DNA from: Flavobacterium branchiarum
GTDB lineage: Bacteria; Bacteroidota; Bacteroidia; Flavobacteriales; Flavobacteriaceae
Direction of reading: 5' to 3'
Length of the DNA: 64,000 nt
Assembly: GCF_030409845.1 (NCBI RefSeq)
Contig: NZ_JAUFQQ010000005.1
Location: 2,170,001 to 2,234,000 of the forward strand
The notes beneath the pieces are model-generated. The model saw nothing but the letters and a program-made list of their open reading frames with translations. It ran no database searches and was not told the origin of the DNA. This document shows, one piece after another, positions 28,178 through 58,239 of the stretch; position 1 is the stretch's first letter; each line of letters begins with the position of its first letter. A program made the translations under genes and the position numbers.

Positions 28178-28262
28178 AGAGAGGTGGCCGAGTGGCTGAA
28201 GGCGCACGCTTGGAAAGCGTGTATATGGCAACATATCGTGGGTTCGAATCCCATCCTCTCTG
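28178..28262 (+). tRNA. tRNA-Ser (anticodon GGA)
   Basis: Acceptor arms AGAGAGG (28178-28184) and CCTCTCT (28255-28261) pair perfectly, with G73 at 28262. The D-arm has GGCCGAGTGG, the anticodon stem is CACGC/GCGTG with loop TTGGAAA (GGA at 28212-28214), a long variable arm typical of class II tRNAs follows, and the T-arm reads GGGTTCGAATCCC. CCA is not encoded. The gene marks the left edge of an accessory stretch. Confidence 0.97.
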
Positions 28263-28519
28263 CAATATTATCTGTTTTTTAGGCTGATGTGATTTTTGTA
28301 CCCAATTTCATACCCAGTTTTGTAAGATTGTAAAGAGATGTTTTATAGATTATTATAAAAAAGCCAACTGAACAGTTGGCTTTTTTTATCTAATATTTGA
28401 ATGGTAATTATATTTTAAATAGGTTAATTTTTATTGATTTGTTTAACATGACTGTGATAACGTGTTAACTTTTTTCTGTTTTTTTAACATGATAAGATAA
28501 ACGTGTCAACAAAATTGAA
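28263..28519. other. Gap after tRNA-Ser with ACCCA direct repeats and a hairpin
   Basis: Two TACCCA words (within 28295-28316) lie about 35-55 bp past the tRNA. A GC-poor palindrome with GCCAACT / AGTTGGC arms and T-run (28357-28387) acts as a terminator. The rest, to the Fic remnant at 28520, is AT-rich, with repeated AACATGA/AACGTGTTAAC-like words. No integrase gene is visible here. Confidence 0.6.
28357..28387. terminator. Intrinsic terminator downstream of tRNA-Ser
   Basis: Arms AAGCCAACT / AGTTGGCTT with a four-base loop; A-run before and T-run after, so it works on both strands. It would end the tRNA transcript. Confidence 0.85.
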
Positions 28520-29614
28520 TTATTTAAACTTGAGTTTTTGTGGCGCATTTTGTAAAAAGTTATAAAGCGCAATATTAATATAAAAGTTTTCTTTACCTAT
28601 TTTATGCAAAGTAATCAGTTTTAATTCTATTAATTGATCCAAGTATTTTGAAGCCGTTTGTCTTGTAATCCCTAAATCTTCAACAATAAAATCAATTTTT
28701 GTGTAGGGATGTTTAAACAGATTGTTAATTAAATCTTGAGAATAAATTTTGGGTAAGTTTTCACGAATTTCTTTTTTATACTCCATCATTAGTTTTTTAA
28801 TTCCTCGGATAATTGCTGTTGTTTGTTTTGAGGTTTGTTCAACGGCTTCAAGTATAAAAAGAATCCAAGGTTCCCAATCTTGAGTTATTCGAGTTTCTTG
28901 TAATAAATGATAATAATTAGCTTTGTTTTGATTAATGTACCTACTTAGATAAAGGATAGGTAAATGTAATAGATCTTCTTTTACTAGGTACAAAATATTG
29001 ATAATTCTACCTGTACGCCCATTCCCATCGTAAAAAGGGTGGATACTTTCGAATTGATGGTGAATGATTGCCATTTTAATTAATGGGTCTAAATCCGTTA
29101 ATTCATCATCATTAATAAAAAGTTCCAAATTACGCATCAAACTTACTATATCGTCATGGTTTTGTGGAGGAGTATAAACTACTTCACCAGTCTGACCATT
29201 TTTTAATTCTGTTCCAGGCAATTTTCTAAATCCTGCTTTCGTTTCTTCTAATATTCCTTGGATTTCAATTATTTGATTACTAGTTAAGATTTTATTTTCA
29301 CGGACTGACTTGAATCCTTCTTTTAAAGCTGTGGCATAATTAAAAACTTCTTTTGCGGCTGTACTTGCAAACTGTTGTGCAATACTGTCACTTGAAAATA
29401 ACTCATCATGTGTAGTAATAATATTCTCAATAGCGGAACTATCTTTTGCTTCCTGTAAAGATAAAGTGTTGAGTACAATAACTTCATTAGGGATTGTCTC
29501 GGCTACTCCGTTAAGTTCAGCAAGTGCTCGATGTGCTACAGCTAATTTTTTAAGAACTATTTTAGTCTCAACGTCTTGTTTAAATGGTTATATAGGAAGT
29601 TTAAATTGGCTCAT
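28520..29614 (-). pseudogene. Fic-family protein with in-frame stop at codon 9
   Basis: The minus-strand frame from ATG at 29614 reads MSQFKLPI, then TAA at 29588-29590, then about 355 further codons without interruption in the same frame to 28520. The body is a full Fic/DOC AMPylator: an N-terminal inhibitory helix with SSAIEN (fits the S/TxxxE(G/N) autoinhibition motif), the active-site HPFYDGNGRTGR, and a C-terminal winged-helix (RQTASKYLDQLIELK). The N-terminal phrase LPI-stop-PFK replaces the family's usual Pro-rich start. No ATG or GTG lies between the stop and the first family motifs; a TTG at 29221 would begin past the inhibitory motif. Either a recent nonsense mutation or a sequencing error. 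Confidence 0.8.
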
Positions 29615-29798
29615 GTATTCTTATTAGTAATTTATTGAAGACTTAATAATAAAATATTATTTCTTCAAAATTAAGTTTTTTATTTAATCTTATCTAAATA
29701 CTTCTTCATAACCCAACCTGTTTCCATTAAATTATCTTTGGGATTGATATAACTTACAAAAGCCTACTTATGATTGATTTGTAACACCACTTCAAAAC
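29615..29798. other. AT-rich gap between Fic remnant and repeats
   Basis: No open frame or RNA gene is recognisable. The sequence is about 75 percent A+T and leads into the palindromic repeat array. Confidence 0.5.
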
Positions 29799-30131
29799 CT
29801 TGTCACTCTGAGGGACGAAGAGTCTTCGTTAGTAGCTCGTGGAGATTCTTCGTTCCTCAGAAAGACAAGACTGGGCGAAGAAAAGCTTTGTGTTAGCTTC
29901 TTTACGGCTATTATTTTACGCAATCAATAATCGCAATCTTGTCACTCTGAGAAACGAAGAGTCTTCATTAGTAGCTCGTGGAGGTTCTTCCTCCGTCAGA
30001 AAGACAAGACTGGGCAAAGAAAAGCTTTGTCTTAGTTTCTTTGGGCTATTATTTTACGCAATCAACAATCGCAATCTTGTCACTCTAAGGAACGAAGAGT
30101 CTTCGTTAGTAGCTCGTGGAGTTTCTTCGTC
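29799..30131. repeat. Tandem array of CTGAGGAACGAAGA palindromic repeats (2.4 copies)
   Basis: Units start at 29799, 29938 and 30076 (period about 139 bp). Each has a 71-bp imperfect palindrome, left arm CTTGTCACTCTGAGGAACGA and right arm TCGTTCCTCAGAAAGACAAG, separated by a GTTAGTAGCTCGTGGAG loop, then a spacer carrying ACGGCTATTATTTTACGCA. The third copy is cut off after the loop. A 107-residue open frame through the array is spurious. Confidence 0.92.
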
Positions 30132-30142
30132 TATTCGCTATT

Positions 30143-30178
30143 GCCCTAACTTTCCTTCTTAAGAAAGAAAGTTAGGGC
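30143..30178. terminator. Long hairpin at the end of the repeat array
   Basis: Perfect arms GCCCTAACTTTC / GAAAGTTAGGGC around a 12-base loop. A T-rich stretch follows only about 20 bases later, so it may be a structural repeat rather than a terminator. It insulates the toxin-antitoxin promoter from the left. Confidence 0.5.
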
Positions 30179-30264
30179 AGGGCTGAGAAATGCGATGTGT
30201 TAGTTTTTTTGTTCGATTTTTTTTATTTTAAAGTTGTGTAATGTGTTGTTTATGGTTAATTATG

Positions 30265-30305
30265 CAACTTTATAGTTGTTTTTTTTGTGTCTTTATGTAT
30301 ATTTG
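30265..30305 (+). promoter_or_regulatory. Toxin-antitoxin promoter with overlapping palindromic operator
   Basis: TTG (30276-30278), 19 bases, TATATTTG (30298-30305) is an ideal Bacteroidota promoter. The TTG is the last three bases of the palindrome CAACT-TTAT-AGTTG (30265-30278), and a further AAAGTTG half-site lies at 30230-30236. The palindrome resembles the AACCT/AGGTT operator of E. coli mqsRA in form, so it may bind the HTH of the downstream antitoxin. Transcription would begin near 30312. Confidence 0.6.
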
Positions 30306-30316
30306 TACGCAATTCA

Positions 30317-30676
30317 ATGCTTATGGTTTTAGAAAGAGAAGTTAAAATTTTTTTAAGTGAGCTAAAGCAGTTCTTAAAGATCTGGCCTATAGTATTTTTG
30401 CATAGACCCAAAAATAGTTTGCAAAACCTTGCAGATATTGGTATTACAGCGAAAAGACGTCTGGAAATTATCCTAGACTTAGAAATAGAAGATTATTCCC
30501 AAGGTCCATTAAGTGAAACACAGCAAAATGGAACGGCAATGTGGGTGTTCGGTAAAGTAGTTAAAAAAACGGAAGTTTATATTAAATTAACTGTTAACAA
30601 AGATAGTAACCACGTAATTTGTATTTCATTTCATATTGCAGAAGATACAATGAATTATCCCTTAAAAGTCAAATAA
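30317..30676 (+). CDS. MqsR-like toxin (type II toxin-antitoxin)
   Basis: 119 residues from ATG 30317 (30323 is an equally good alternative); the longer frame from 30287 begins upstream of the -7 box and is rejected. The sequence fits the MqsR-type mRNA-interferase-like fold: helix EVKIFLSELKQFLK, the block RRLEIILDLEIEDYSQGPL, then MWVFGKVVKKTEVYIKLTV and VICISFHIAE. The conserved Tyr of QVYLKI in E. coli MqsR is kept (EVYIKL), while the catalytic Gln and second Lys are not obvious, so activity is unproven. The stop at 30676 is one base before the antitoxin start at 30678, indicating coupled translation. Confidence 0.72.
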   Translation: MLMVLEREVKIFLSELKQFLKIWPIVFLHRPKNSLQNLADIGITAKRRLEIILDLEIEDYSQGPLSETQQNGTAMWVFGKVVKKTEVYIKLTVNKDSNHVICISFHIAEDTMNYPLKVK

Positions 30677-30677
30677 G

Positions 30678-31688
30678 ATGAAAAGCCCATTTACTAATGA
30701 AGAAATGATTTTACTGAACGAAAAAAGTAGTTTAGTATTTCGTAATAAAGAATTTCAATATGTGTTTCATTATTATTGGTGTAAGGAAACAGAAGAAAAA
30801 ATTACAACAACAGAATTAGATGAATTAAATATTAATCAGGTTTATAATCAATATAGAGATTTACATAATATACCTTTTCCTGATGAGATTTATAATATTA
30901 GAAAGAAATACGATTTATCAGCAAATAAAATGTCTTTATTGTTGGGTTTAGGGCCCAATAGTTACAGACATTATGAAAAAGGAGAAATTCCTAGTTTAGT
31001 TATTGCTAATTTAATTCAATCTATCATTGTAAATCATAATGTTTTTAAACAATTAGTGGAATGGAATAAAGAGTTGAAAGATTCAGATAAAGTTAAAATT
31101 TTAGCTAGAATTGAATCCGTAGAATCAAAAGGGAATGATGAAAATTACGCTATAGAAGAGTATTTAAATCTATCTTGTGGTAATTTGGTGCCAGGTAAGA
31201 TGACTGGTTATAAAAAAACGAACATACATAAGTTGTCTGAAATGGTTTTATTTTTTACTGAAAAAATGCAACCAACAGTTACAGCAATGAATAAGCTTTT
31301 GTTTTATTCTGATTTTTTACATTATAAGGAAACTGCCTATTCAATAAGTGGGTCATCATACATGGCACATAATTATGGACCAGTTCCTGTTAAGTTTAGA
31401 ACTATTTATGAATACATGGCTGACCAACAATTGATAGAATTTAAATGTGAAGATTATGGCAATGGTGTTATTGGCGAAAGATTTTGTCCAACTGAGCATA
31501 AAAAATTTAACTCAGAGCTGTTTAATGAATCTGAAATTAAAGTTTTATCTGTTATTGCGGATTTTTTTAAAGGCATGAATGCTTCGCAAATTATGAATGA
31601 AAGTCATAAAGAAAAGGCATGGACTGAAAATGTTAAAGAAAAAGCATTAATAGATTATAGTTATAGCTTCGACCTGTTAGTTGTTTAA
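30678..31688 (+). CDS. Antitoxin: MqsA-like HTH fused to Panacea (DUF4065/SocA-like) domain
   Basis: 336 residues in two parts. Residues 1-125 align by eye with MqsA: the MKCPVC opening becomes MKSPFT, a single Cys remains in YYWCKET where MqsA has two, and the HTH follows as IRKKYDLSANKMSLLLG with GPNSYRHYEKGEIP, close to the MqsA RYEKG helix. Residues about 185-330 match DUF4065 (Panacea/SocA), with MNKLLFYSDFLHYKETAYSISGSSY split across the known core, HNYGPVP and a C-terminal helix bundle. Panacea domains neutralise many unrelated toxins. Here it should inhibit the MqsR-like toxin and repress the promoter through the HTH. The apparent loss of the zinc ribbon is notable. Confidence 0.8.
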   Translation: MKSPFTNEEMILLNEKSSLVFRNKEFQYVFHYYWCKETEEKITTTELDELNINQVYNQYRDLHNIPFPDEIYNIRKKYDLSANKMSLLLGLGPNSYRHYEKGEIPSLVIANLIQSIIVNHNVFKQLVEWNKELKDSDKVKILARIESVESKGNDENYAIEEYLNLSCGNLVPGKMTGYKKTNIHKLSEMVLFFTEKMQPTVTAMNKLLFYSDFLHYKETAYSISGSSYMAHNYGPVPVKFRTIYEYMADQQLIEFKCEDYGNGVIGERFCPTEHKKFNSELFNESEIKVLSVIADFFKGMNASQIMNESHKEKAWTENVKEKALIDYSYSFDLLVV

Positions 31689-31799
31689 TAATTTGAAAAA
31701 GCTAATGATCTCAGGTCAATAAATGGGAAATGCTTCCAGTATTGTTAAGTCTTGATAGTGTCTTTACGGCTATTATTTTACGCATTAAACAATCGCAAT

Positions 31800-31870
31800 C
31801 TTGTCACTCTGAGGAACGAAGAGTCTTTGTTAGTAGCACGTGGAGGTTCTTCGTTCCTCAGAAAGACAAG
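31800..31870. repeat. CTGAGGAACGAAGA palindromic repeat (single copy)
   Basis: A 71-bp imperfect palindrome with the same arms and loop as the array at 29.8-30.1 kb, preceded by the same ACGGCTATTATTTTACGCA spacer (31765-31783). It lies between the antitoxin gene and the convergent XRE gene. Confidence 0.9.
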
Positions 31871-31893
31871 TTTGGGGTTTAAAAAAAAATGGA

Positions 31894-31922
31894 ACAAAAA
31901 AAGAGACCATATCGGTCTCTCT
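31894..31922 (-). terminator. Intrinsic terminator of the XRE gene
   Basis: Stem AGAGACC / GGTCTCT with a five-base loop and, on the minus strand, a run of T residues. It is 27 bp past the XRE stop codon. Confidence 0.82.
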
Positions 31923-31948: not shown

Positions 31949-32368
31949 TTATTCGCCTTTTAGTAATTTCTCCAAATATTCGTTTTTGTCTTTTTCAGAC
32001 TGTAATAAACGTTCGTAGAGTTTTTTGTTTTCTTCTACAGCTTCCATCAATTTATCTAATGGATTGAATGTGCAATGATTTGATTGTATAGCTCCATTAC
32101 TGTGGCTAAAGTCGTTATCGTAAATAGTGTTGAAATAATTAATCACGTTTTCTTCTGTAAAATTTTTAATTGCTTCAACAGAAACTTCCAGCACTTTTGC
32201 AATTTCAATAAGCTTTTCTTCATCAACATTTTCGCTTGCTTCAATATTAGAAACAGATTGTTGAGATAAGCCAATTGCAAAAGCCAACGCTTCTTGTTTC
32301 ATGCCTTTAAGTTCTCTAATTCGGCTAATATTTTTGCCAATATGTTTTGGTTTTGTTGCTGTGCTCAT
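31949..32368 (-). CDS. XRE-family (Cro/CI-type) HTH regulator
   Basis: 139 residues. The helix-turn-helix spans about 13-68 (ISRIRELKGMKQEALAFAIG, LSQQSVSNIEASE), and a C-terminal coiled coil follows (about 105-139, LMEAVEENKKLYERLLQSEKD), suggesting a dimer or oligomer. Such proteins are common in mobile or accessory regions. No obvious operon partner. The target is unknown. Confidence 0.88.
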   Translation of the reverse strand: MSTATKPKHIGKNISRIRELKGMKQEALAFAIGLSQQSVSNIEASENVDEEKLIEIAKVLEVSVEAIKNFTEENVINYFNTIYDNDFSHSNGAIQSNHCTFNPLDKLMEAVEENKKLYERLLQSEKDKNEYLEKLLKGE

Positions 32369-32469
32369 ATTTCAAAGATATTTAAAATTCTTAAAGGAAA
32401 ATATATTTTAGTAAAAAACCTCAATTTTATAAGATACGGTTTTGATGACCTTGTTCGGATTAATTTTCT

Positions 32470-32976
32470 TTACAATTTAATTTCAAACAAGCTAAAAGAA
32501 CCTTCTTTGTAATGTTCGGGTAATTCGTTTGTCCACTCGATAACGCTAACGCCTTTGAAATCAAAACCACAACTCATATAGTACTTGTTTATTCTTTCGT
32601 TGCCGCTATGAGTGTCTAATCTTATGTAAGATTTGTTATTCTCTTTGGCATATATTTTTACCCATTCGATAATTTTTTTGACATACGATTGACCCCTGAA
32701 TTTAGGATTCGTCGCAATTCGATGTAGGTAAACAGCAGGATCTGCGCTGGCTTCTTTCCAAATAATTAAATCATTAAAAGTAAGCACAAAAGTGCAGGCA
32801 ACTTCGCCATCTTCTTTGATTACAAAATGACGGTCTTCGGAGATTTCTTTTTCTATTAAGGCTCTTTCAAAACCTCTCCAGCTTTTATTATTAACAGTTT
32901 TTTGGTACGATGTAGCTTCATTATAAATATCGAAAACAGCATCGATATCTTCATTTGTAGTTTTAAAAAATTCCAT
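32470..32976 (-). CDS. GNAT-family N-acetyltransferase
   Basis: 168 residues with a GNAT fold: the acetyl-CoA pyrophosphate-binding loop is seen as RIATNPKFRGQSYVKKI near 88-104 (R-x-x-G-x-G/S form), followed by the NERINKYYMSCGF segment typical of motif B. No signal or membrane segment. The substrate is unknown; it is one of three GNAT genes in this 12-kb stretch. The start follows a short AT-rich leader. Confidence 0.88.
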   Translation of the reverse strand: MEFFKTTNEDIDAVFDIYNEATSYQKTVNNKSWRGFERALIEKEISEDRHFVIKEDGEVACTFVLTFNDLIIWKEASADPAVYLHRIATNPKFRGQSYVKKIIEWVKIYAKENNKSYIRLDTHSGNERINKYYMSCGFDFKGVSVIEWTNELPEHYKEGSFSLFEIKL

Positions 32977-34269: not shown

Positions 34270-34364
34270 GTTCTACGATATTAATATTTTAGGCAAAAAT
34301 AACGGGCATGATAATTTACAAATTGTATAAAACCGACATTTTGAAGTTGCTTGTGGGACTGAAG

Positions 34365-36945
34365 GTATGATTAGTGGCTGAGAAAATCATTTTAATCTGT
34401 GGAATCTGTGGTAAAAAAGTTTACCGCAAGGTTCGCAAGGTTTGGTGTTGTGGGAATGCGCAAGGTTCGCAAAGTGTTGTGTTGGTTTTTAGTAGCTGAA
34501 AAAAAAATCTTTTTAATCATTTTAATCTGTGGAATCTGTGGTAAAAAAGTTTACCGCAAGGTTCGCAAGGTTTGGTGTTGTGGGAATGCGCAAGGTTCGC
34601 AAAGTGTTGTGTTGATTATAAGTGGGTGAGAAAATCATTTTAATCTGTGAAATCTGTGGCTAAAAAGTTTATCGCAAAGTGCGCAAAGTTCACTGTTGTG
34701 GGGATGCGCAAGGTTCGCAAAGTGCTGTGTTGTATTTTAGTGGCTGAGAAAATCATTTTAATCTGTGGAATCTGTGGCAAAAAAAAATTACCGCAAAGAG
34801 CGCAAAGTTCGCTGTTGTGGGGATGCGCAAGGTTCGCAAAGTGCTGTGTTGTATTTTAGTGGCTGAGAAAATCATTTTAATCTGTGGAATCTGTGGCTGA
34901 AAAAATTTACCGCAAGGTTCGCAAAGTTCGCTGTTGTGGGAAAGCGCAAGGTTCGCTATGTGTTGTGTTGGTTTTTAGTGGCTGAGAAAATCATTTTAAT
35001 CTGTGGAATCTGTGGTAAAAAAGTTTACCGCAAGGTTCGCAAGGTTTGGTGTTGTGGGAATGCGCAAGGTTCGCAAAGTGTTGTGTTGGTTTTTAGTAGC
35101 TGAAAAAAAAATCTTTTTAATCATTTTAATCTGTGGCAAAAAAAAATTACCGCAAAGAGCGCAAAGTTCGCTGTTGTGGGGATGCGCAAGGTTCGCAAAG
35201 TGCTGTGTTGTATTTTAGTGGCTGAGATAATCATTTTAATCTGTGGAATCTGTGGCTAAAAAGTTTACCGCAAAGTGCGCAAGGTTGCTGTTGTATTTTT
35301 AGTGGCTGAGAAAATCATTTTAATCATTTTAATCTGTGGCTAAAAAAGTTTATCGCAAAGTGCGCAAGGTTCGTTGTTGTGGGAATGCGCAAGGTTTGCT
35401 AAGTGTTGTGTTGATTATTAGTGGTTGAAAAAAATCATTTTAATCTGTGGAATCTGTGGCTGAAAAAATTTACCGCAAGGTTCGCAAAGTGTTGTGTTTA
35501 TTTTTAGTGGCTGAGAAAATCATTTTAATCATTTTAATCTGTGGCAAAAAAAAATTACCGCAAAGAGCGCAAAGTTCGCTGTTGTGGGGATGCGCAAGGT
35601 TCGCAAAGTGCTGTGTTGTATTTTAGTGGCTGAGAAAATCATTTTAATCTGTGGAATCTGTGGCTAAAAAGTTTACCGCAAAGTGCGCAAGGTTCACTGT
35701 TGTGGGAATGCGCAAGGTTCGCAAAGTGCTGTGTTGTATTTTAGTGGCTGAGAAAATCATTTTAATCTGTGGAATCTGTGGCAAAAAAAAATTACCGCAA
35801 AGAGCGCAAAGTTCGCTGTTGTGGGGATGCGCAAGGTTCGCAAAGTGCTGTGTTGTATTTTAGTGGCTGAGAAAATCATTTTAATCTGTGGAATCTGTGG
35901 CTAAAAAGTTTACCGCAAAGTGCGCAAGGTTCGCTGTTGTGGGAATGCGCAAGGTTCGCAAAGTGTTGTGTTGTATTTTTAGTGGCTGAGAAAATCATTT
36001 TAATCTGTGGAATCTGTGGAATCTGTGGCTGAAAAAATTTACCGCAAGGTTCGCAAAGTTCGTTGTTGTGGGAATGCGCAAGGTTCGCAAAGTGATGTGT
36101 TGATTATTAGTGGGTGTGAAAACATTTTAATCTGTGGAATCTGTGGAATCTGTGGCTGAAAAAATTTACCGCAAGGTTCGCAAAGTTCGTTGTTGTGGGA
36201 ATGCGCAAGGTTCGCAAAGTGATGTGTTGATTATTAGTGGGTGTGAAAACATTTTAATCTGTGGAATCTGTGGTAAAAAAGTTTACCGCAAGGTTCGCAA
36301 GGTTTGGTGTTGTGGGAATGCGCAAGGTTCGCAAAGTGTTGTGTTGGTTTTTAGTAGCTGAAAAAAAAATCTTTTTAATCATTTTAATCTGTGGCAAAAA
36401 AAAATTACCGCAAAGTGCGCAAAGTTCGCTGTTGTGGGGATGCGCAAGGTTCGCAAAGTGTTGTGTTGGTTTTTAGTGGCTGAGAAAATCATTTTAATCT
36501 GTGAAATCTGTGGCTAAAAAGTTTATCGCAAAGTGCGCAAGGTTCACTGTTGTGGGAATGCGCAAGGTTCGCAAAGTGCTGTGTTGTATTTTAGTGGGTG
36601 AGAAAATCATTTTAATCTGTGGTAAAAAAGTTTATCGCAAAGTGCGCAAGGTTCACTGTTGTGGGAATGCGCAAGGTTCGAAAAGTGCTGTGTTGGTTTT
36701 TAGTAGCTGAAAAAAAAATCTTTTTAATCATTTTAATCTGTGGCAAAAAAAAATTACCGCAAAGAGCGCAAAGTTCGCTGTTGTGGGGATGCGCAAGGTT
36801 CGCAAAGTGATGTGTTGATTTTTAGTAGCTGAAAAAAAAATCTTTTTAATCATTTTAATCTGTGGCTAAAAAAGTTTATCACAAAGTGCGCAAGGTTTGC
36901 TGTTGTGGGGATACGCAAGGTTCGCAAAGCGGTGTGTTGTAATTT
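34365..36945. repeat. Large tandem word-repeat array (about 22 units, 90-132 bp each)
   Basis: About 2.6 kb of tandem composite units. In order, a unit holds TCATTTTAATCTGTGG with one to three AATCTGTGG words, an A-run, ACCGCAAGGTTCGCAAGG, CTGTTGTGGGAATGCGC, AAGGTTCGCAAAGTG, TGTGTTG and TTTTTAGTGGCTGAG. Successive CATTTTAATCTGTG starts occur at about 34387, 34519, 34636, 34753, 34871, 34993, 35124, 35231 and so on to about 36857. Units vary by word gain and loss and by a few point changes. Short open frames (60-77 residues) here are repeat artefacts. It lies between minus-strand genes. Confidence 0.97.
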
Positions 36946-55767: not shown

Positions 55768-58239
55768 TTATTGACGGAAAAATACGCGTTTCACACGTTG
55801 CGATATACTGGTAAGGATTTCATAAGGAATAGTGCGTAATTCCTGAGCTATTTCTATTACAGTTGGGCTTTCGCCAAAGATTACCACATCGTCACCTTCT
55901 TTGCAATCTATAGCACTTACATCGACCATGAGCATGTCCATGCAAACATTTCCAACAATTCGTGCTTTTTTTCCTTTTATGGTTACAAAACCAACTCCGT
56001 TACCCCAAAGTCGGGCAATTCCGTCGGCGTATCCAATAGGAATTGTAGCAATTCGAGTTTCTTTTTCTGCCATAAATTTGCGTCCATAACCTACACTATC
56101 ATTAGCAGGAATGGTTCTTACCTGAGATATAATTGATTTTAATGTGCTTACGTTCTCTAGGTATTTTTGTTCAGCTGGATCATTAGAAACGCCGTATAAA
56201 CCAATTCCTAAACGCACCATATTATATTGTGCTTGCGGGAAATTGCTAATTCCTGAAGTATTCAAAATATGACGAATGGGATTAATAGCTAACTCAGTCA
56301 TTAATTTAGAAGATAGCTTTTCGAATAAATCAATTTGCGAAAGCACAAAGTCAAAATGTTTTTCTTCATCGCTAGTTGCCAAATGAGATAATATACTTTT
56401 TACTTCAACAGTTGAATTGCCTTTTAGCGTAGCAATTAATTCATCGAGTGTATTGGCTTCAAACCCCAATCGATGCATTCCCGTATCTAGTTTTATATGA
56501 ATAGGGAAATGATGTAACTTTTTCTCTTTGGCAATTTTTAAAAAGGCATTTAATCCTTTTAAACTATAAATTTCTGGTTCTAATTGGTGCTGAATAATAG
56601 CCGAAAAAGTCGTGGTTTCGGGATTAAGTACCATAATAGGTAATTTTATACCTCCGTTTTTAAGAACTATTCCTTCATCGGCGAAAGCCACACCTAGATA
56701 ATCTACTTTGTGGTGTTCGAGTAATTTGGCAATTTCAAGTCCTCCATTTCCATAGCTATATGCTTTTACCATCACCATCATTTTGGTGTTTGGATTTATT
56801 TTGGATTTAAAGAAATTAAGATTATGTCCAATTGCGTTGAGGTTAATCTCAAGAATTGTCTCGTGCGTTTTCTCCTCAAGTAGCGCAACAATTTCTTCAA
56901 AATGGAATGTGCGTGCGCCTTTTATAAGAATGGTTTCGTTTGCAAAATCTAATGATTCATAGTGAGCAATGAACTCGGCAGTATCAGGAAAAGTAATGCA
57001 ATTAGAAAATTTATCGGCAAATTTTGAAATCGTAGAGCCAATACCAATTACGCGACTTATTTTATTAGATTCGATAAGTTGGGCTACTTTTGTGTATAAT
57101 TCGTCATTAGAAAAACCACTCTGGAGAATGTCAGATAAAATGACCGTTTTCTTTTTGAATTTATGTTGGCTTTCCAAGAAATCCAATGCAATTTTTAAGG
57201 ATTGGAAATCGGAGCTGTAACTATCGTCGATGATACTACAATTATTGATTCCGGTTTTTACTTCCAAACGCATTTCTACAGGATACAATAAATGCATTCT
57301 GTTTTGAATTGTAGCCGAATCGTATTTTAAATACAATAAAACCATCAGACAAGAAATGGCATTTTCTATAGAGGCATCATCTTGAAGCGGAATAGTAAAA
57401 TCGTTTATTTCGTTCTCATATTGGTATTGTATTGCGGTACTTTCGTTATGAGATTCTTTTGTCGAAACTAAAACATCAGCTTTTTTATCTGTAAAACTCC
57501 AAGAAAATAACTGTCTTGACTCCAGCATATATTCAGCAGCAAATTGAGTCAAGCAAGAATGCACAACCTCATTTTTCTGATAAATAATTACAGGGCATTC
57601 TTTAAATAGAAGTAGTTTTTCGTCTATTTTTTGAACCAGATTTAAAAAGCCTTCATCGTGTGCTGATCCAATATTGGTAAGCAATCCGATAGTGGGTTTT
57701 ATAATTTTTTCTAGCTTGTCCATTTCAGCAACGGTAGAAATTCCAGCTTCAAAAATACCCAGATTGTGTTTTTCGTTAATTGCGATAACCGATAACGGAA
57801 CGCCAACTTGTGAGTTGTAACTCTTAGGGCTTCTGATTATATTATAATCGGGACTTAGCAAGAAATTAAGCCATTCTTTTACTATCGTTTTACCATTACT
57901 ACCGGTCAATCCGATAATAGGAAAATTAAAAAGACCACGATAATATGCTGCAACTTCTTGTAAAGCTGCTAGCGGATTTTCGACAACTATATAATTAGCC
58001 CTTTGGGTATATTTTTCAGGAATTTCGGTTACCACAAAATTATGAACGCCTTTTTCGATCAAGTCAGGAATATAATCGTGAGCATTATTGTTAGGCCCGC
58101 TTAAAGCAAAAAACAATGTTTTAGGTCCGTTTTGTAAAGAACGACTATCAATAGAAATATGGTCGATGTTGATGTCGGAGTTGCCTCCAAACCATTTTGC
58201 ATGAAGCGTTTGAATTATATTTTTAAGATTTATAGGCAT
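55768..58239 (-). CDS. Bifunctional MurF-alanine racemase
   Basis: 823 residues, a known Bacteroidota fusion. The N-terminal half (1-455) is a MurF ligase with P-loop IGLTGSNGKTIVKEW (about 109-123) and the Mur central domain; the C-terminal half (about 458-823) is a PLP-dependent alanine racemase with the catalytic Lys in MVKAYSYGNGG (about 489), the later Tyr in SVGYGRKF, and MVRLGIGLYG. It supplies D-Ala and attaches D-Ala-D-Ala to the UDP-MurNAc tripeptide in one protein. An ACACATAG element and the 58.6-kb duplication lie between its start and the divergent membrane gene. Confidence 0.95.
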   Translation of the reverse strand: MPINLKNIIQTLHAKWFGGNSDINIDHISIDSRSLQNGPKTLFFALSGPNNNAHDYIPDLIEKGVHNFVVTEIPEKYTQRANYIVVENPLAALQEVAAYYRGLFNFPIIGLTGSNGKTIVKEWLNFLLSPDYNIIRSPKSYNSQVGVPLSVIAINEKHNLGIFEAGISTVAEMDKLEKIIKPTIGLLTNIGSAHDEGFLNLVQKIDEKLLLFKECPVIIYQKNEVVHSCLTQFAAEYMLESRQLFSWSFTDKKADVLVSTKESHNESTAIQYQYENEINDFTIPLQDDASIENAISCLMVLLYLKYDSATIQNRMHLLYPVEMRLEVKTGINNCSIIDDSYSSDFQSLKIALDFLESQHKFKKKTVILSDILQSGFSNDELYTKVAQLIESNKISRVIGIGSTISKFADKFSNCITFPDTAEFIAHYESLDFANETILIKGARTFHFEEIVALLEEKTHETILEINLNAIGHNLNFFKSKINPNTKMMVMVKAYSYGNGGLEIAKLLEHHKVDYLGVAFADEGIVLKNGGIKLPIMVLNPETTTFSAIIQHQLEPEIYSLKGLNAFLKIAKEKKLHHFPIHIKLDTGMHRLGFEANTLDELIATLKGNSTVEVKSILSHLATSDEEKHFDFVLSQIDLFEKLSSKLMTELAINPIRHILNTSGISNFPQAQYNMVRLGIGLYGVSNDPAEQKYLENVSTLKSIISQVRTIPANDSVGYGRKFMAEKETRIATIPIGYADGIARLWGNGVGFVTIKGKKARIVGNVCMDMLMVDVSAIDCKEGDDVVIFGESPTVIEIAQELRTIPYEILTSISQRVKRVFFRQ

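Follow-up and report, generated by a model that had tools for sequence, protein, structure and literature searches.

A 64,000-nucleotide stretch of the Flavobacterium branchiarum genome (NCBI RefSeq assembly GCF_030409845.1, contig NZ_JAUFQQ010000005.1, positions 2,170,001 to 2,234,000; hereinafter, the window) carries a toxin–antitoxin pair in which an MqsR-like protein is encoded immediately upstream of a fusion protein that combines an MqsA-type N-terminal domain (N-domain), a helix-turn-helix domain (HTH), a linker and a C-terminal Panacea domain (Table 1). The N-domain lacks three of the four cysteines that bind zinc in MqsA. The locus is probably a zinc-free variety of the MqsR:PanA pair, in which a toxic RNase would be neutralized by an N-domain that folds and binds it without metal, the HTH would repress the operon, and Panacea would be a regulatory or sensing addition.

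Comparisons of sequence profiles and predicted structures bear out the identities of the two proteins proposed in the initial annotation of this DNA. The 119-aa toxin, whose stop codon ends at 30676, one base ahead of the antitoxin ATG at 30678, matches the Pfam family MqsR_toxin (PF15723) with 27.6 bits, above the cut-off of 26.2, and the same profile matches 48 of the 52 aligned family toxins at E ≤ 1. A profile–profile comparison of the toxin family with six classical MqsR sequences yielded an E-value of 8e-7 (probability 91.6); the toxin sequence alone retrieved nothing from the PDB chains up to E 10. The AlphaFold model of the toxin (mean pLDDT 89) has MqsR (3hi2) as its top PDB match by Foldseek (E 9e-4), with a TM-score of 0.56 by query length, and thus displays the RelE/MqsR fold. 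An alternative start codon, GTG at 30287, would extend the protein to 129 aa. The 336-aa antitoxin matches SocA_Panacea (PF13274) over residues 205–315 with 68.2 bits against a cut-off of 25.7, which, together with the toxin gene adjoining one base upstream, identifies it as a PanA protein. Its N-terminal part matches the MqsA family TIGR03830 over residues 8–124 with 61.0 bits, slightly under the cut-off of 61.8, and MqsA PF15731 with 25.7 bits, under the cut-off of 30; TIGR03830 is matched at E ≤ 0.001 by all 53 aligned family antitoxins. In the AlphaFold model of the antitoxin, the mean pLDDT is 93.5 and ten-residue blocks of the N-domain score 92–97, values that are no proof of folding without zinc. 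The top PDB match of this model is MqsA (3gn5, E 9.4e-5), with the structure of isolated MqsA-N (3ga8) in fourth place (E 0.18); the secondary structure is that described for MqsA-N, followed by an HTH. Ranks two and three are occupied by chains of the Mycobacterium tuberculosis DarTG complex (7yk3; probability 1.00, E 0.027 and 0.086).

Table 1. Features of the toxin–antitoxin locus, in window coordinates
Feature	Coordinates	Strand	Remarks
Accessory segment with the toxin–antitoxin pair	28266..31915		Directly after tRNA-Ser(GGA), 28178-28263; missing in relative G465
Palindrome CAACT-TTAT-AGTTG, CAACTTTATAGTTG	30265..30278		Precedes the toxin gene; candidate operator for the HTH
Bacteroidota-type -7 box TAnnTTTG, TATATTTG	30298..30305	+	Offset 20 from the palindrome end
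MqsR-like toxin, 119 aa	30317..30676	+	PF15723 above cut-off; model matches 3hi2 MqsR; start picked from the family alignment
Antitoxin, 336 aa	30678..31688	+	Zinc-free MqsA-type N-domain, HTH, linker, Panacea
N-domain, residues 1-62	30678..30863	+	Long strands 11-21 and 24-34, helix 45-62; MqsA-N topology, three of four ligands gone
HTH with RHYEKGE, residues 68-125	30879..31052	+	HTH_3 at 71-107, 20.1 bits (cut-off 23); alignment to MqsA-C
Panacea (SocA/DUF4065), residues 183-336	31224..31685	+	Pfam match 205-315

The zinc ligands Cys3, Cys6, and Cys40 of Escherichia coli MqsA correspond to positions 3, 6, and 38 of the window antitoxin (Ser, Thr, and Thr), and only Cys37 has a cysteine counterpart, C35. 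When a profile of 53 family antitoxins is aligned with MqsA, the alignment starts at residue 1 and places Ser, Thr, and Ser/Thr opposite Cys3, Cys6, and Cys40, with Cys retained opposite Cys37; concealment of a zinc ribbon by misalignment was thereby ruled out, and the one remaining cysteine counted in the initial annotation stands. To place this pattern in the family, we collected 113 antitoxins of at least 300 aa, of which 90 remained after a simple, unaligned cut at 90% identity. It should be noted that the sampling is uneven, with 82 loci coming from scans with the family N-domain (of 311 relatives in the genome scan, the best 80 were kept and more distant ones left out), 20 from a search with the antitoxin, and 19 picked from other scans. 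Among the 90 non-redundant antitoxins, the ligand columns read STCS in 39, STCT in 34, SSCT in two, and SACT in one, so that S-T-C-[ST] accounts for 73; nine have four cysteines, three have three, and two lack the N-terminal loop. Altogether, 78 of the 90 possess neither four nor three cysteines. In the Bacteroidota/Chlorobiota branch sampled, the site is absent from 76 of the 80 non-redundant antitoxins, and the other four combine four cysteines with Panacea. Judging from these alignments, the zinc-less state is not a local decay but is fixed, as S-P-x-T ... C-x-[DE]-[ST], in nearly all of this branch. Decay, the term used in the initial annotation, also does not fit the former ligand positions, which have the highest conservation (0.817) of the five position sets compared across 76 sequences.

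A phylogenetic tree was built from the HTH, linker, and Panacea regions, with the N-domain columns left out. Changes of zinc state on this tree number at least three for 'no zinc', by the starred, well-supported branches, and five for 'zinc'; the two loop-less sequences form long branches of unsure placement. As far as can be read from this tree, loss of the zinc site, or loss followed by regain, which cannot be told apart, occurred more than once. Within the Bacteroidota branch, the four zinc-bearing antitoxins cluster with two zinc-less ones (support 97/96), so the fusion with Panacea is not tied to the loss of zinc. Non-fused counterparts were also encountered. The Pfam MqsR profile detected matches (E ≤ 0.01) in 27 of 395 genomes of the phylum group (24 above the cut-off), and an adjacent open reading frame (ORF) of 81–169 aa with a CxxC...CxxC motif was present at 22 of the 23 loci inspected out of 30 returned, none being found beside one weak match; this search was keyed on the motif and could find zinc-bearing short MqsA proteins only. 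A second type of pair exists in the genus of the window: in three genomes (G154, G463, G410), an MqsA-related antitoxin of ~165 aa, too short to contain Panacea and devoid of zinc ligands, lies beside an MqsR-like toxin (loci L173, L242, and L243; toxins of 126–127 aa). Counted from the probable start, these Panacea-less antitoxins are free of cysteines up to residue 130 and have two or three beyond it. The toxins beside them are matched by the family profile with E-values of 1e-8 to 2e-7 (for 5000 sequences). The G154 toxin has no Pfam MqsR match, and its antitoxin scores 41.2 bits with TIGR03830, below the cut-off.

The initial annotation held that, after decay of the zinc site, toxin binding had been taken over by Panacea, the HTH keeping its regulatory role. 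The absence of the ligands, the homologies to MqsR, MqsA, and Panacea, and, as discussed below, regulation by the HTH agree with our results, but the scenario as a whole is quite unlikely. In the experimentally dissected MqsR:PanA pair of Bacillus fungorum, the toxin is neutralized by the zinc-binding domain (ZBD) and by ZBD-HTH but by neither Panacea nor HTH-Panacea, and Panacea is, in the authors' suggestion, a sensor (PMC10440598). In our family (76 sequences), the mean conservation of the N-domain (0.597) is practically that of the HTH (0.596) and is followed by Panacea (0.491) and the linker (0.340). The 13 positions equivalent to the MqsA–MqsR interface named in PMC2791442 are more conserved than the other positions (0.662 vs 0.527; by permutation, p is 0.047 when all non-ligand N-domain positions serve as the reference and 0.012 when only the non-core ones do). 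Furthermore, the rank partial correlation with toxin distance is 0.34 for the N-domain, 0.42 for the HTH, and -0.19 for Panacea over 65 toxin–antitoxin pairs, and 0.20, 0.40, and -0.16, respectively, over the 59 zinc-less pairs, with the N-domain above Panacea in 400 of 400 bootstraps for both sets; under other distance measures, the values are 0.27, 0.33, and 0.08, and the N-domain exceeds Panacea in 93% of 300 bootstraps. Because the zinc-less N-domain is as conserved as the HTH, has an MqsA-N-like predicted fold and co-diverges with the toxin, which Panacea does not, takeover of toxin binding by Panacea appears unlikely. Fusions that carry all four zinc cysteines together with Panacea adjoin toxins of the same family, and MqsA-related antitoxins with neither Panacea nor zinc ligands exist (aligned over family residues 32/37 to 144 only), both of which further argue against such a transfer. 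In its favor, some other toxins are neutralized by Panacea alone (PMC10440598), and zinc loss is common in the collected fusions compared with the near-universal CxxC...CxxC ORF at the Pfam-MqsR loci.

Several observations weigh against the N-domain as the toxin-holding part and have to be set beside the above. The core positions of the N-domain are as conserved (0.663) as the interface, so that conservation alone is no proof of toxin binding, and co-divergence is not contact, the value for the HTH exceeding that for the N-domain. Among the top 20 covarying pairs of the 59 zinc-less loci, one involves the N-domain, four the HTH, one the linker, and 14 Panacea, against expectations of 3.2, 3.2, 4.1, and 9.6; covariation thus does not favor the N-domain, and its excess points in part to Panacea. 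After average product correction (APC), two of the top 100 pairs fall in the N-domain against 19 expected, and variable linker columns dominate. The Panacea-less antitoxins align with the family only from residue 32 or 37 (to 144), leaving the ribbon region itself unaligned, and therefore constitute a weaker counter-example to Panacea takeover. In one experiment, the cognate PanA failed to rescue from a Herbaspirillum MqsR toxin (PMC8832971). Finally, only Tyr81 is retained among four E. coli MqsR residues considered below, and the activity of the toxin could differ. When the zinc-bearing rows are included (65 pairs), the N-domain accounts for eight of the top 20 covarying pairs against 3.6 expected, largely owing to one clade, and, with background removed, the eight strongest couplings include six between toxin position 75 or 77 and antitoxin position 3, 6, or 38. 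Toxin position 77 aligns with Q68 of E. coli MqsR, which contacts the loop K2-H7 of MqsA (PMC2791442). However, the coupling of position 77 with the ligands amounts to about one event, because the four zinc-bearing rows, all with Glu at this position, form one clade with two zinc-less rows, and Glu77 also occurs in six zinc-less rows.

It is also conceivable, if unlikely, that the toxin is held jointly by the N-domain, HTH, and linker, or by a face of the HTH, through a three-dimensional epitope for which no single domain is enough. In both sets of pairs, toxin distance has its strongest partial correlation with the HTH, and HTH with Panacea is listed in the class that neutralizes through a folded epitope (PMC10440598). 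However, the isolated N-domain is sufficient in B. fungorum PanA according to the same source, and in the solved E. coli complex the contacts of MqsR are with MqsA-N (PMC2791442).

The regulatory role that the initial annotation assigned to the HTH gains support from a conserved palindrome that overlaps the predicted promoter and is a candidate operator; its first base coincides with position 30265, where that annotation had placed the start of the locus. We surveyed 61 non-redundant zinc-less loci for which 150 upstream bases were available, using as a control 2039 tiles from the same loci, mostly coding. Exact CAACT-N4-AGTTG occurs at 16 of the 61 loci and in none of the control tiles, and with up to two mismatches at 51 of 61 compared to ~7.8% of the tiles. 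Because the control tiles are mostly coding, 60 dinucleotide-keeping shuffles of the 61 regions were added, which yielded a mean of 0.02 exact occurrences (most, 1) and of 5.6 with up to two mismatches (most, 11). Downstream of the palindrome lies TAnnTTTG, which we take to be the consensus of the Bacteroidota-type -7 box, and a TTG within the right palindrome arm (30276-30278) is a candidate -33 element. Over the 51 loci, the box is most often offset from the palindrome by 20–21 bases (13 boxes), followed by 40–41 (8), 0–1 (6), and 30–31 (3). With the box 20–21 bases past the palindrome, a bound HTH would therefore cover the -33 region. A scan for sigma-70-type promoters found six, fewer than the 9.7 in shuffles, and the E. 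coli-type motif AACCT-N2-4-AGGTT was present in none of the 61 upstream regions. The zinc-bearing loci include one with the exact palindrome (L115), two with two mismatches (L019, L164), and one with three (L165), counted as lacking it. In the whole F. branchiarum genome, the ten bases of the motif occur at four places, little more than the two of a backward control, but the four middle bases are all A/T only in the copy at the locus. Two further exact CAACT-N4-AGTTG sites lie in the window, at 28365-28378 and 57804-57817, making three in 64 kb versus 0.04 expected from shuffling.

Aligned via classical MqsR sequences, residues K56, Q68, Y81, and K96 of E. coli MqsR correspond to Q62, V77, Y88, and H106 of the window toxin. 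The E. coli variants K56A, Q68A, Y81A, and K96A were visible on blots, whereas the wild type stopped growth too fast (PMC2791442), and the predicted catalytic Tyr97 of B. fungorum MqsR is required for toxicity (PMC10440598). Across the family, almost every toxin retains Y88 (64 of 65), H106 (65 of 65), and W76 (63 of 65). From these alignments, we infer that the toxin would be an RNase in which His replaces the last Lys. The retention of Tyr alone among the four E. coli residues could instead point to a degenerate pair, with an inactive toxin or an orphaned antitoxin kept as a transcription regulator, and so could the state of the toxin genes: the ORF is intact at 67 of 82 antitoxin loci, and among the remaining 15, nine have toxin homology by tblastn (some partial) and six (L056, L071, L075, L112, L113, L114) have none with three family toxins as queries at E ≤ 1e-3. 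We consider degeneration very improbable in view of the near-invariant toxin residues and the intact toxin ORF in the window.

The pairing of MqsR with Panacea is well known, since MqsR-like toxins account for 90 of 1,268 Panacea partners (PMC8832971). The closest characterized counterpart is B. fungorum MqsR(D2):PanA, which shares with the window an MqsR toxin and a ZBD-HTH-Panacea antitoxin and in which neutralization by the N-domain has been shown; its N-domain is called zinc-binding (compared here by description), whereas that of the window is without three of the four ligands (PMC10440598). E. coli MqsR/MqsA resembles the window pair in the fold of the toxin and of the N-domain and in the HTH (PMC2791442; 3hi2, 3gn5); MqsA binds its own promoter, comparable to the candidate operator in the window, but has 131 residues, contains zinc and lacks Panacea, unlike the 336-aa window antitoxin (PMC2791442). 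A precedent for a zinc-finger-like antitoxin domain that lacks cysteines and directly blocks a toxin is the pseudo-ZFD of CapRel, although there the toxin is of the toxSAS type, both halves reside in one protein and the domain consists of a three-stranded sheet and one helix (PMC9712102). A similar arrangement of a small upstream ORF followed by a zinc-less MqsA-HTH-Panacea protein is found in Lactococcus phage bIL311 (orf20/orf21, locus L181) and on a Fusobacteria plasmid; the small ORF of bIL311 matches MqsR weakly (19.5 bits, cut-off 26.2), and that of the plasmid gave no MqsR hit at E-values up to 1. Both antitoxins fall far outside the Bacteroidota branch and lack the ribbon loops at the N terminus altogether instead of having them replaced. 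The bIL311 pair, annotated merely as Orf20 and Orf21, resembles an MqsR-like toxin with a zinc-less MqsA-HTH-Panacea antitoxin. In the open literature without supplements (titles, abstract openings, and the available portions of PMC8832971, PMC10440598, and PMC10305079), we found no description of zinc-less MqsA-Panacea antitoxins; the domain composition has already been published, but we encountered no account of the fixation of the zinc-free pattern, of the repeated change in zinc state, or of the palindrome.

Collectively, we favor a zinc-free MqsR:PanA pair that might operate as follows. The toxin would be a divergent RNase of the MqsR/RelE fold. The N-domain appears to keep the MqsA-N fold and would still grip the toxin directly, without zinc, its ligand positions being fixed as Ser, Thr, Cys, and Ser/Thr, probably in a metal-free, hydrogen-bonded knuckle. 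The HTH would repress the operon through the CAACT-N4-AGTTG palindrome overlapping the -33 region, and Panacea would be an added regulatory or sensing domain rather than the main toxin grip. In E. coli, zinc-free MqsA is degraded by ClpXP, and oxidation of the cysteines has been proposed to block zinc binding (Vos 2022, via PMC10846083). A more speculative extension, to which we give limited credence, is that the Bacteroidota clade removed this zinc/redox switch and kept the toxin grip, Panacea having taken over the sensing that leads to release, so that it is the trigger that moved and not the binding. If the proposed mechanism is correct, zinc, although a textbook feature of the MqsA family, would not be needed to hold an MqsR toxin, and two roles that usually go together, binding of the toxin and its release under stress, would come apart, making the suggested sensor role of Panacea testable. 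The toxin family has natural partners of both kinds, zinc-bearing and zinc-less fusions, which can be compared directly.

The toxin–antitoxin pair is accessory, because the segment that carries it is absent or variable among relatives and a match to the antitoxin, at times restricted to Panacea or HTH, was found in 31 of 296 phylum-group genomes. In the relative G465, the bases that flank the segment (28265 and 31916) have counterparts 27 bases apart, right after the tRNA-Ser gene. In the five further relatives compared, the left flank is preserved and different ORFs occupy the spot; the gene at 31949 is matched in G398 and G465 only, and in the remaining four relatives the match on the right side sets in at 32438-32477 (three) or 33329 (one). 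Neither the toxin nor the antitoxin was matched by PADLOC up to E 10. Relatives on viral contigs are few (2, 2, 3, and 3 loci in four scans, some on the same contig), and at one of them (L178) the zinc-less antitoxin adjoins a 370-aa ORF whose end resembles, by eye only, a tyrosine recombinase.

The same accessory segment encodes, on the minus strand (28520-29221, TTG start), a 233-aa Fic/SoFic-like protein that matches both Fic and the SoFic-like C-terminal family; the former match begins at profile position 30, so the front of the protein may be missing. A repeat of ~138 bases is present in three copies before the pair (29752-30152) and one after it (31753-31876, 88% to the reference copy), forming direct repeats on both sides of the toxin–antitoxin genes. 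Further downstream, at 34329-36488, lies an array of 15 diverged copies with a spacing of mostly 117–130 bases.

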